Assembly (NCBI RefSeq): GCF_030209445.1
Contig: NZ_JARVSD010000008.1
Span: 248,001-312,000, forward strand
Direction of reading: 5' to 3'
Origin: Promicromonospora sp. MEB111
GTDB taxonomy: Bacteria; Actinomycetota; Actinomycetes; Actinomycetales; Cellulomonadaceae
DNA: 64,000 nucleotides
In this document: in pieces, positions 55,835 to 61,361 of the stretch
How positions within the stretch are numbered: position 1 is the first letter of the stretch
Layout: each line of letters begins with the position of its first letter
The notes under the pieces: model-generated
What the model saw: the letters and a program-made list of their open reading frames with translations, nothing else
Told to the model about the DNA's origin: nothing
Database searches by the model: none
Program-made: the position numbers and the translations under genes

Positions 55835-56200
55835 GGGGCTGATCGGTTTCGACGGTGGTCGTGCTTCGAGGAGAAGCGGGCCGAGGATGCAGGCTTATCT
55901 CGTAAACGATGCCTGTAAACCAATAGTTGCCGATAACTCGCGCAACGACTTCGCCCTCGCCGCCTGAGCGAGCCCGAAGTCCGTGGGCCCGGAGTCTGCT
56001 TTCGCTCCGGTAGTCCGCGTCATCTAGAAAGCCACTGCTCGTAGCTCTCGTCATCGGGGCTACGGGAACACTTAGATGACTGGGCCTGTCCGCGAACGTG
56101 TCTGCGCGAGCGCGGGGGCCGAGAAAATCCATAGCAGACTGCGCCCGGAGAAGTCCTCGTTAACCGATACCGGACCCGGGTTCGATTCCCGGCAGCTCCA
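55835..56200 (+). ncRNA. ssrA: Transfer-messenger RNA (tmRNA)
   Basis: The 5' end GGGGCTGATCGGTTTCGACG pairs with the 3' acceptor CAGCTCC (56193-56199); the T arm GGTTCGATTCC is just before it. The tag reading frame starts at 55929 (GCC GAT AAC ...) and encodes ADNSRNDFALAA, stop TGA at 55965-55967. This is a normal actinobacterial tag ending in ALAA. The 3' CCA is not encoded (genome reads ACG), so it must be added by the nucleotidyltransferase. One-piece, not permuted. Works with SmpB to rescue stalled ribosomes. Confidence 0.97.
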
Positions 56201-56219
56201 CGTGACAGCCATGTGGCAG

Positions 56220-56249
56220 AAGGCCTCGCCGGTGTTCCGGCGAGGCCTT
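56220..56249 (+). terminator. Terminator of ssrA
   Basis: Perfect 13-bp stem AAGGCCTCGCCGG with a TGTT loop, 20 bp after the tmRNA 3' end. A strong hairpin, also able to stop the converging lipoprotein gene. Confidence 0.85.
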
Positions 56250-56292
56250 CGTCGTGCCCGGGGTCTGGTGCCCGCCTCGCGGGCCGGGCCCC

Positions 56293-56952
56293 CTACTCGA
56301 CGTCGCGCAGTGCCGACAGCACCGCGACCGTCTCGGCGCCGTACGTGTCGTCGGCGTAGCGCTGGATGCTGCCGTCGTCGTAGACGACCGTCACCCGGAC
56401 GTAGCCGTTCTCGACCCAGCCGCTGAGGCCGCCGAGGTCGTCGAACACCTCGCTCTGCAGCTCGTCGGCGCCGGATCCTGCTCCGGCCGCCCCGGCGTTG
56501 TCCGGCGCGAGCCGGGGGTCGTCGTCGGACGCGGGCGGCTCGGCCGGGGCGGCGCCCGCCTCGGTGAGGTGGAAGGTCGCGCCGTCCCAGGTGCCCTCGA
56601 CCGTGTACTGGCCCCAGGTGGTGCTCTGTGCGGACTCCTCCGCCTCGACGGCGTCCCAGTCCCATCCGGCGATCTCGGGTCCGCCGCACTGGGGCGGGTA
56701 CGACTCGGCCACCCCGCCCAGGCAGAGCTCGGGCGGTCCGTCGCCCTCCTGGAGCACGGTCGCGACGGCGGTCACCGGGCCCGGCGCCGAGGGCGCGGGC
56801 GGCGCGGACACCGCAGTGTCGCCGGTCTGGTCACCGTCGGATGCGGGGTCGGCGGGGCTGGCGGGGTCGGCGGGGCCGGCGCACGCGCCGAGCAGCAGGA
56901 CGCCGGCCAGGCCGGTGCCGAGGGCGCGGAGTGGTGCTCGCAGCGGGCTCAT
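56293..56952 (-). CDS. Putative lipoprotein, unknown function
   Basis: 219 aa. Basic start and hydrophobic core (LGTGLAGVLLLGAC) with a lipobox; Cys24 is the likely lipidated residue. A Pro/Ala/Ser/Asp-rich spacer (about 27-60) tethers a domain with one cysteine pair (ELCLGG, PPQCGG), W-rich IAGWDWDAVEAEES, and a C-terminal strand pair (GYVRVTVVYDDGSIQRYADD). No known domain recognised. The gene converges on ssrA; its promoter side faces the 29-bp inverted repeat 42 bp upstream. Confidence 0.8.
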   Translation of the reverse strand: MSPLRAPLRALGTGLAGVLLLGACAGPADPASPADPASDGDQTGDTAVSAPPAPSAPGPVTAVATVLQEGDGPPELCLGGVAESYPPQCGGPEIAGWDWDAVEAEESAQSTTWGQYTVEGTWDGATFHLTEAGAAPAEPPASDDDPRLAPDNAGAAGAGSGADELQSEVFDDLGGLSGWVENGYVRVTVVYDDGSIQRYADDTYGAETVAVLSALRDVE

Positions 56953-56993
56953 ACCCGCTATGTGTCGGCGCTTGCGCGCCAGCCGCTGGTCGG

Positions 56994-57069
56994 AAGTGCG
57001 CCTCTACCCAGTCATCTGGCCCAGATCTACTGTGGTTTCCGGGCCAGATGACTGGGTAGAGGCGCACTT
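56994..57069. repeat. 29-bp perfect inverted repeat
   Basis: Arms 56994-57022 and 57041-57069 are exact reverse complements (outer ends AAGTGCGCCTCTACCC, inner ends ending TCTGGCCC) separated by 18 nt. The core AGATGACTGGG also occurs in the tmRNA gene at 56074. It lies between the divergent lipoprotein and DUF222/HNH genes. Confidence 0.9.
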
Positions 57070-57483
57070 TGCCGGGGCCGACGCCGACCGGGCACCAAGC
57101 ACCGGGCGCCACGCACCAGGCGCCGGCCAGGTGGTGCCGAACACGCCGGGATCGAAGCCGAGCAGGAGGCTGGCATCGAACACGCTCGCGTCGGTTGACA
57201 TGCCCTCGCCGGAACGGGCCGCAGCGGAGTTCGTTCCAGGCTCGCGCCAGCGGTTGGGCTTGCGCGAGCAGATGACGCGCCAGGATCGCCGCTCGCTGAC
57301 GGCCCGACTGCGTGCGAACTCGACCGACCTCGGCCCAGCTCGGGCGCCCGGGACGCTATCCGATCCGTGCTCGACGAGTGGTGTATCCACCGGGTCGCGA
57401 GCGAGGCAGCCGTCGGTTTCTGCCGATGGCAGACAGGGTCGGTTCGACGAGCAGTGCGAACATGTGTGTCATAGGTTGATGGC
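57070..57483. other. 414-bp region upstream of the HNH gene
   Basis: No convincing gene. It begins with the short direct repeats GGGCACCAAGCACCGGGCGCC and CACGCACCAGGCGCC. Near the end CGAACATGTGTGTC (57457-57470) is a degenerate LexA-box-like sequence, 14 bp before the HNH start. Confidence 0.4.
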
Positions 57484-59394
57484 ATGACGCGAACGGGTGA
57501 GGTGTTGACACGGACAGGCGACGAGCTGCCTGTCGGGTCGGTGCTGCCCGGCGGTGGAGTGCCGTCTGATGGTGCCGTGCGGGCCGGGATCGTAGATGCC
57601 GCGGTGGTTGATGCTGCGGGTGTGCGGGCGGTGCGTCAGATGGTGGCGGGCATGGTCTTGCCGGGTGCCGACGAGATGGTCAGGGTCGCGGGTGCGAACG
57701 TTGGCGTTGGTGTGAACGATGGCCCGGGTGGCGGGCCGCGGGTGCAGGCGGAGTGGGTGGACCTGCTCGGTGAGCTGGAAGCGTTGAAGAACGCGGTCAC
57801 GGCGACGCAGGCCCGGTTAGCCGTGATGTTGGATGAGGCCACGAAGTCCGAGGAAGCCGGGCAGGGCATCCGGGCCGAACGCAGGGGTCGTGGGGTCCCG
57901 AACCAGGTCGGTGCCGCCCTGCGGGTGAGCCCCCACGCCGGTGCCGGGTTCGTGAGCACGGCCCGGGTGTGGGTCACGCAGATGCCGCACACCTTCGCCG
58001 CGTTGCAGGCTGGGGTGCTGTCCCCGTGGCGGGCCACCCTCCTGGTCCGGGAGACCTCACACCTGACGGTGGAGCACCGTGCCCTGATCGACGAGGAGAT
58101 CTGCGGACCGCAGCACCTGGCGGACCTGGCCCGGATGGGCACGCGCCGCCTGGTCGCTCGGATCAAGGAACTGGCCGCCCAGTTGGATGTGCACGCGTGC
58201 GTCAAGCGCAACGCCACGGCCGTGTCGGAGCGGCGGGTGTCGGTGCGTCCCGCACCCGACCTGATGGTCTACCTGACCGCCCTGGTCCCGATGGCGCAGG
58301 GTGTGCAGGCCTACGCCCAGCTCAAGACCCACGCCGAGATGGTCAGGGCGGGCGGTGATGGGCGGGGTGCGGGGCAGATCATGGCCGACACCCTCATCGA
58401 ACGCGTCACCGCCCGTCAGCCTGGCCACACGAACGACGTACCGGTCACGATCAACCTCCTGGTCTCGGACGAGACCCTGCTGGCCGGTGGTAACGAGCCC
58501 GGTGTGGTGTTGGAGGGCGCCCCGGCGGGTGTGGGCACGGTCCCGGCGCCGGTCGCCCGGCATCTGGCGGCGCATGCGATCGAGACCGACACCGCGTGGC
58601 TCCGGTCGATCTATGTGAACCCGCACGGTCGCCTGGTGGCGACGACGTCGACGTCAAGGTTCCACCCCCAGGGCCTGGCCGCGCTCCTGCGTGCCCGGGA
58701 GCAGGGGATCTGCGCCACGACGTGGTGTGACGCCCCGATTCGGCACCTGGACCACGTCACCCCATTCATCGAGGGCGGACCAACGAGCCTCGATAACGGG
58801 CAGGGCTTGTGCGCCCGGTGCAACCACGCCAAGCAATCACCCGGTTGGTCGCAGAAGACCACCCAGGTCGACGGCCGGGATGCTGTGGAGACGATCACAC
58901 CCACGGGGCACACGTATGTCTCGGTCGCGCCCACACCACCGACACCGGTCACGACCGGCAATGCAACGCCGGCTCGTGGTGCGCTGGTTCGCACCACAGT
59001 CCGCGACGCGATCCCGGTCCCTGACACGACACCTGCTCAGGGCGCGGCACCGGTCCGCGGCACGACCGTGGTTAGTGCCGCCGCAATCCTGCCCGCTGAA
59101 GCAGCGGCGACCGGCCCCACCGGACCCGTCCGCGACCAGGCACCAGCCCCCGAGCGATCCACCACCCCAACCTGGACCCCCGCCGTCGGCATGACGGGAC
59201 CGAGCAACGGGCACACACCCCGCAGCCGCTACCAGATCGGCTGCCACACCAACCCCCGCAACGCCCCGATCCCTTACCGACCAGGCCCACCCGGCCGGCG
59301 CCGCCCGCCACCGCCTTCACGCCAAACAGCACCTCGGCGACCAGCGTCCTACGGAGGCCGCCAGGCCGACCTCGCCTGGACGCACCCTCGCTGA
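57484..59394 (+). CDS. DUF222 / HNH endonuclease family protein (13E12-like)
   Basis: 636 aa. N-terminal DUF222 domain (about 85-330: ELEALKNAVTATQARLAVML, LSPWRATLLVRETSHLTVEH, RRVSVRPAPDLMVYLTALVP), a linker, and an HNH domain (about 405-455) with CATTWCDAPIRHLDHVTPFI and LCARCNHAKQSPGW: two CxxC pairs and the H-DH-N-H catalytic set. The C-terminal 150 residues are Thr/Pro/Ala-rich and low complexity. This family is the 13E12 repeat family of mycobacteria, multi-copy and presumed mobile or defence-related; function is unproven. A 29-bp inverted repeat and a LexA-like sequence precede it. Confidence 0.88.
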   Translation: MTRTGEVLTRTGDELPVGSVLPGGGVPSDGAVRAGIVDAAVVDAAGVRAVRQMVAGMVLPGADEMVRVAGANVGVGVNDGPGGGPRVQAEWVDLLGELEALKNAVTATQARLAVMLDEATKSEEAGQGIRAERRGRGVPNQVGAALRVSPHAGAGFVSTARVWVTQMPHTFAALQAGVLSPWRATLLVRETSHLTVEHRALIDEEICGPQHLADLARMGTRRLVARIKELAAQLDVHACVKRNATAVSERRVSVRPAPDLMVYLTALVPMAQGVQAYAQLKTHAEMVRAGGDGRGAGQIMADTLIERVTARQPGHTNDVPVTINLLVSDETLLAGGNEPGVVLEGAPAGVGTVPAPVARHLAAHAIETDTAWLRSIYVNPHGRLVATTSTSRFHPQGLAALLRAREQGICATTWCDAPIRHLDHVTPFIEGGPTSLDNGQGLCARCNHAKQSPGWSQKTTQVDGRDAVETITPTGHTYVSVAPTPPTPVTTGNATPARGALVRTTVRDAIPVPDTTPAQGAAPVRGTTVVSAAAILPAEAAATGPTGPVRDQAPAPERSTTPTWTPAVGMTGPSNGHTPRSRYQIGCHTNPRNAPIPYRPGPPGRRRPPPPSRQTAPRRPASYGGRQADLAWTHPR

Positions 59395-59480
59395 GGCCGC
59401 CCGCTCGACGATCCCGCACCTCCGGGGCACACTGGCAGCGGCGCGGACACCGGGGTTCGCGGCGGAGAGCTGGAGGGCCC

Positions 59481-61361
<1,881 letters not shown>

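Follow-up and report, generated by a model that had tools for sequence, protein, structure and literature searches.

REP sequences are palindromes of 20–40 bp, one end of which carries an unpaired tag, GTAG or CGTC, as given in PMC3733652. Hairpins at gene ends are also described in mycobacteria, where terminators without a U-tail occur no further than about 50 bp from the stop codon, those called I-shaped being defined by their shape, according to PMC12288462. A further system, the DNA uptake sequences, consists of motifs of 9–11 nt present in about 1000 or more copies, single as well as paired, which can differ between related species, as stated in PMC1852404. The palindrome described here lies in a window of 64,000 nucleotides of Promicromonospora sp. 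MEB111, the whole stretch of DNA that was analysed, and its two exact-complement arms with an 18-nt spacer, reported by the first-pass annotation, were confirmed in the letters of the window. The features of the locus are the following:

56293–56952, minus strand: lipoprotein-like gene, divergent from the DUF222 gene, its start 42 bp off the palindrome
56994–57022, no strand assigned: left arm of the palindrome, 29 bp, perfect
57023–57040, no strand assigned: spacer/loop
57041–57069, no strand assigned: right arm of the palindrome, 29 bp, perfect
57484–59394, plus strand: DUF222 + HNH gene (13E12-like), 636 aa
56992–59282, plus strand: block shared with L040 (G000:C32), comprising the palindrome, a leader of 414 bp and the greater part of the DUF222/HNH gene

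The lipoprotein label comes from the N-terminus read by eye, and no Pfam family was found for that minus-strand gene. Among all perfect inverted repeats of the whole window with spacers of 2–38 nt, this palindrome is the longest, with 29 bp compared to 15 bp for the runner-up, and the RNA fold of 56985–57085 reaches -77 kcal/mol vs -38.3 ± 3.8 in shuffles (z -10.2). Two extra pairs are possible within the spacer, and most other copies allow up to four (GGAA/TTCC). In an Rfam scan around the palindrome, tmRNA alone attains its gathering score; miRNA models match the palindrome far below theirs.

The arm had been predicted to be multi-copy, which was borne out by at least 27 places in this genome, the copies having mostly been found through likeness to one dialect. 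The DNA search covered 59 genomes, this one (G000) and 58 relatives, and gave matches in ten of them, namely nine of the 13 genus genomes and G042, whose 28-bp match does not span the palindrome. Alignment A1, built from 71 copies of nine genus genomes (17 copies belong to this genome), has the consensus GTGCGCTTCTACCCAGTCATTGGGCCCGGAA - loop - TTCCGGGCCCAATGACTGGGTAGAAGCGCAC, a palindrome of about 76 bp with about 33 pairs. By pair counting over these 71 copies, 91.5% of 2341 cells are paired, dropping to 30–44% in slid control alignments; 19 of the 33 pairs carry changes on both sides, which are compensatory, and double-changed cells number 109 observed vs 40.1 ± 7.0 in shuffles. A covariance model yields at least 54 matches in this genome, corresponding to the at least 27 places read on both strands, a lower bound for which 150 of the 2976 first-look candidates were scored. 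The same model matches all 13 genus genomes, the weakest being G005 (two rows, best E 1.4e-8) and G008 (eight rows, best E 1.1e-6), and with tighter filters it finds 27 of 221 family genomes, including all 13 of the genus. In named genomes, the exact pattern is found in 25 stretches, 24 of them from three species of Promicromonospora and one from a Chitinophaga MAG; this last one, together with two pattern matches in viral_contigs, was discarded for having no second arm within 150 nt. The phage and plasmid collections gave no palindrome match at E 1e-5, and a literature search, with most subscription journals outside its scope, found nothing on Promicromonospora palindromes. As judged from these alignments and searches, the repeat belongs to a family of long palindromes dispersed in Promicromonospora genomes. 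G006 has 102 model matches vs 54 in this genome, and its loci L060, L066 and L068 are tandem clusters of 3–4 palindromes, about 185–280 bp apart, with duplicated flanks.

Comparison of the flanks shows that numerous copies occupy positions that are orthologous between species. The two arms vary together at such positions: three orthologous left arms read GCCATCTGG (L042), GCGATTGGG (L085) and GTCATTGCG (L089), each matched by its right arm, with one mismatch in L042. A test locus, consisting of a gene with a palindrome at each end, was viewed in the 13 genomes through inverted-repeat structure alone. Its middle gene is present in ten of the 13, and palindromes stand at both ends in nine of these ten, one end being doubled in G008. 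In the tenth, G006, the middle gene is inverted and palindromes are found at one junction only, as if the segment had been flipped via recombination between copies. The gene is missing in G001, G004 and G005, of which G001 retains one imperfect palindrome, and the inverted-repeat scan found none at the test locus of G004 and G005. The doubled palindromes of G008 (L246, G008:C14:133000-137000) have their own core, ATTGTGCCCGG in two of three copies, and the other junction of G006 (L245, G006:C2:995500-999500) bears a fragment resembling a palindrome end, AAAAGTGCG.

The copies compared at those spots were collected by a lax profile search, and the dialect test was applied to the eight genomes with ancestral order and a single palindrome at both positions, with strands set alike. 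Core identity was 0.913 for the two positions of one genome; across genomes it was 0.723 where the copies were orthologous and 0.718 where they were not, and four of 40,320 permutations reach the observed within-genome pairing value. With one genome per group, within-genome identities are 0.81–0.97 and orthologous means 0.60–0.68. The same-genome partner is best or tied, to two decimals, in seven of the eight genomes (ties in three of the eight), the exception being G011, where the copy of G007 beats the same-genome partner. As the two test positions lie about 1.3 kb apart, local recombination could inflate their similarity, which makes the genome-wide check matter. The G003 core ACCAAGCAGTTNNGCMTG has 15 matches on six G003 contigs and none in each of the 12 other genomes, and its reversed-pattern control has none in all 13. 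In a core census of 138 copies read, CCCAGTCAT is present in G000 (17/26), G006 (20/27), G010 (21/27), G009 (4/12), G011 (4/8) and G007 (2/4), and in none of the 34 copies of G001, G002, G003, G004, G008 and G012; CCCAGCGAT is found in G002 (7/10) and G012 (6/10), also in G000 (4/26) and G010 (6/27), and CCAAGC in G003 (5/6) and G001 (2/4). When every copy is counted, genomes have a mean internal core identity of 0.71–0.89, and the copies of G001, G007 and G009 are closer to those of some other genome than to their own. The outer arms of G002, G012 and G011 differ by locus, yet pair at 63–76%. By this comparison, core spelling goes by genome or by closely related lineage instead of by position, the copies appearing to evolve in concert. 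The dialects, as read in the census, are common to close lineages and not pure.

Outside the genus, the exact core GACCCCGTCAT stands in a palindrome at eight of the 12 loci read in the family genus g20. With the weak covariance-model scores (best E 2.6e-9), a common descent of the g20 and Promicromonospora palindromes is no more than likely. Matches in g7 and g23, having only CCCGGAAC-like letters in common, look like chance. A single distant match in genus g14 (L134, G025:C1, around 562677) has the 16-nt CGACCACGCCATTCTG directly repeated before the palindrome, which is possibly another dialect.

Regarding the position relative to genes, called with an in-frame hexamer model trained on the window, 25 copies of this genome lie in 23 gaps, 12 of them convergent, ten co-directional and one divergent, the two copies (of 27) that overlap called genes, L138 and L145, being left out of the gap counts. 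The comparison gaps of at least 90 bp at the same loci are 5 convergent, 20 co-directional and 17 divergent. Among relatives, where gene-overlapping copies were dropped and orthologous loci are not independent, copy-bearing gaps are 19 convergent, 30 co-directional and 2 divergent vs 4, 22 and 17 for the other gaps. In co-directional gaps the copy is closer to the upstream stop than to the downstream start in 10/10 cases here and 28/30 in relatives; its distance to the upstream stop is 1–205 bp in this genome (at most 50 bp in six of ten) and 1–78 bp in relatives (at most 50 bp in 23 of 30). The only divergent copy-bearing gap of this genome is that of the window itself, so that the window copy, upstream of both neighbour genes and not behind any stop codon, is atypical. 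The T content downstream of copies is low and variable, and thus they are not canonical intrinsic terminators. In transcribed orientation, the 53 co-directional copies have 67 G-U vs 56 A-C mismatches, with no RNA-strand bias.

The reading we regard as probable is that of a bidirectional, terminator-like family of 3'-end hairpins evolving in concert, with the window copy as an exception. Copies directly behind stop codons would form hairpins at gene 3' ends, and between convergent genes one symmetric hairpin could serve both. From position and structure, their putative job is most likely bidirectional, U-tract-poor (I-shaped) termination or 3'-end protection. What holds the copies in concert would be either recombination or gene conversion among them, or a factor that recognises stem and core and co-evolves with them. 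For palindromes, gene-conversion and template-switch ideas exist. Contrary to the mycobacterial terminators without a U-tail, one study, by its title, reportedly holds that a U-tract is required. A selected RNA hairpin should favour G-U, so the nearly equal G-U and A-C mismatches leave room for DNA-level selection or for arm-onto-arm copying. A more specific version would have a dedicated, fast-evolving trans-acting factor of Promicromonospora, perhaps wider in the family, reading stem and core, its drift rewriting the copies into lineage dialects without RAYT; this we consider on the unlikely side.

The first-pass annotation had offered a mobile element, a recognition site of the HNH protein or a regulatory hairpin, of which the regulatory hairpin fits best and the general tie to DUF222/HNH is weak. 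DUF222 gives 15 match rows in this genome, spread over about ten genes, nine of whose loci were examined (the window, L040 and L053–L059), a tenth at a contig end being left out. At E 0.001 the palindrome is present at two of the nine, the window and L040, both duplicates of each other, and no copy was found at the remaining seven (L053–L059); upstream of six of those seven there are weaker inverted repeats, the best with 93% over 14 nt. Its expected occurrence upstream of other DUF222/HNH genes is therefore not a rule. The window and L040 match in DNA at 56992–59068 (83%) and 59139–59282 (84%) and in protein residues 1–634, the homology starting 2 bp outside the palindrome. Loci L053, L054 and L058 have in common with the window DNA only the gene and the 66 bp directly upstream of its start, and L055, L056, L057 and L059 have no DNA match to the window DUF222 locus. 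A tblastn search of the window DUF222 protein against 81 loci, besides the window and L040, returned L053, L054 and L058, which had been fetched for DUF222, and a 46-residue match in L097; this search reaches close relatives only, as it missed the distant DUF222 genes in L055–L057 and L059.

The proposed comparison of ssrA loci did find a site lacking both repeat and HNH gene: at the orthologous ssrA-lipoprotein-acs site of G003, the lipoprotein gene adjoins acs, with neither DUF222 nor palindrome. Homology between window and G003 ends at about 56978 and resumes at about 59397, and at this empty site, the only one compared, about 105 bp of other sequence replaces palindrome and DUF222, and the comparison showed no precise insertion flanked by a target duplication. 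In G012 and G004, DUF222 stands at the orthologous site without the palindrome, the best inverted-repeat scores being 10 and 6, compared to 29 for the window gap and to a mean of 8.3 and a maximum of 11 in 20 shuffles; in other genomes the locus is rearranged. The palindrome, on this comparison, is no general part of DUF222 units, as seven of nine loci have no copy and G012 and G004 bear DUF222 without it, and the association as a general rule is largely refuted. That it is part of a DUF222/HNH (13E12-like) element, or its recognition site, we hold very improbable, the points in its favour being the homology with L040 that opens just beyond the palindrome and the absence of both from G003. By these two observations, the tie stands for this lineage, where the palindrome does form the boundary of a block that was duplicated. 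Most likely the window copy was carried here, or from here, with the duplicated palindrome-leader-DUF222 block, as the right flank and the DUF222 gene are in common with the second locus; such travel would explain why no stop codon precedes it. Across the genus, the stretch that follows ssrA (window 55835–61361; L190–L201) is variable: in the sequence fetched, six of 13 genomes have a DUF222 gene in or near it, in differing arrangements.

The presence of AGATGACTGGG, from the arm, in the tmRNA gene (ssrA) at 56074 was confirmed, while the connection drawn from it was not borne out, since it rests on one 11-mer resembling chance. It is exact in five places of the genome, the four besides ssrA being palindrome arms, and the AG that opens the match is unconserved across the family; the shared 11-mer was thus read as chance and the ssrA link rejected.

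Two further explanations concern the family as a whole. A REP/MITE-like miniature mobile element could be moved in trans by an unrecognised transposase preferring gene 3' ends, with new copies replacing old ones and so forming dialects. The dispersed copies, the tandem clusters of G006 and the likeness within a genome fit this, as does the 3'-end placement, reported for REPs in PMC3733652. On the other hand, a Y1_Tnp search at E 0.001 found nothing in all 13 genus genomes and was positive in five of 14 control genomes, by which mobilisation by RAYT was rejected; the test-locus gene keeps palindromes at both ends in nine of ten genomes, the tenth, G006, being rearranged; the one empty site compared (G003) has no target-duplicating precise insertion; an unpaired GTAG/CGTC end tag is not seen in the alignment, and the phage and plasmid collections are without a match at the threshold given above. 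Consequently, a mobile element seems unlikely. The palindrome could also be a double-stranded DNA site of a dimeric, sequence-specific protein, such as a chromosome organiser or global regulator, its specificity drifting by lineage, in line with the conserved core, the near-perfect symmetry, the mismatches without strand bias and the lineage dialects. However, freely variable positions and locus-specific outer arms still pair, and protein contacts alone need no pairing; in addition, the 3'-end bias and the scarcity in divergent gaps are unlike regulator sites, making a protein site quite unlikely. The 3'-end hairpin family remains the preferred reading.

Compared to known systems, the palindromes resemble REP/REPIN-RAYT in being many-copy, intergenic, mostly downstream of genes and alike within a genome. 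They differ from the 20–40 bp REPs in being mostly 60–77 bp or longer (one of 49), and in having GTAG within the base-paired stem in the main dialect, absent from several others, with no unpaired end tag; moreover, there is no Y1 transposase match in the 13 genomes and orthologous positions are kept across species. If confirmed, they would be dispersed 3'-end hairpins at ancestral positions, respelled in step by lineage without a REP-type transposase, and the question why dispersed short palindromes stay alike, whether through mobility, gene conversion or selection by a factor that reads them, could then be put to the test, as dialects, orthologous loci and outgroup loci are directly comparable. 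Like the uptake-sequence terminators of Neisseria and Pasteurellaceae, they consist of a conserved motif in inverted pairs and form hairpins where genes end, but they number tens of copies and the 10-nt core is not found outside palindromes: in the 434,767 bases fetched, which are not whole genomes, ACCCAGTCAT occurs 88 times inside palindromes and never outside. A DNA-uptake-like use was rejected on copy number. The likeness to REP13E12/DUF222-HNH lies in the DUF222-HNH gene adjoining the window copy, itself multi-copy in the genome, unlike whose units the palindrome is no general component. The I-shaped mycobacterial terminators share with them a strong GC-rich hairpin near the stop codon with no clear U-run, termination activity being putative here, and if confirmed the family would provide candidate bidirectional terminators for high-GC actinobacteria. 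Unlike those terminators, which are defined by shape, the Promicromonospora palindromes have a core sequence that the copies within one genome hold in common and that changes in them together.
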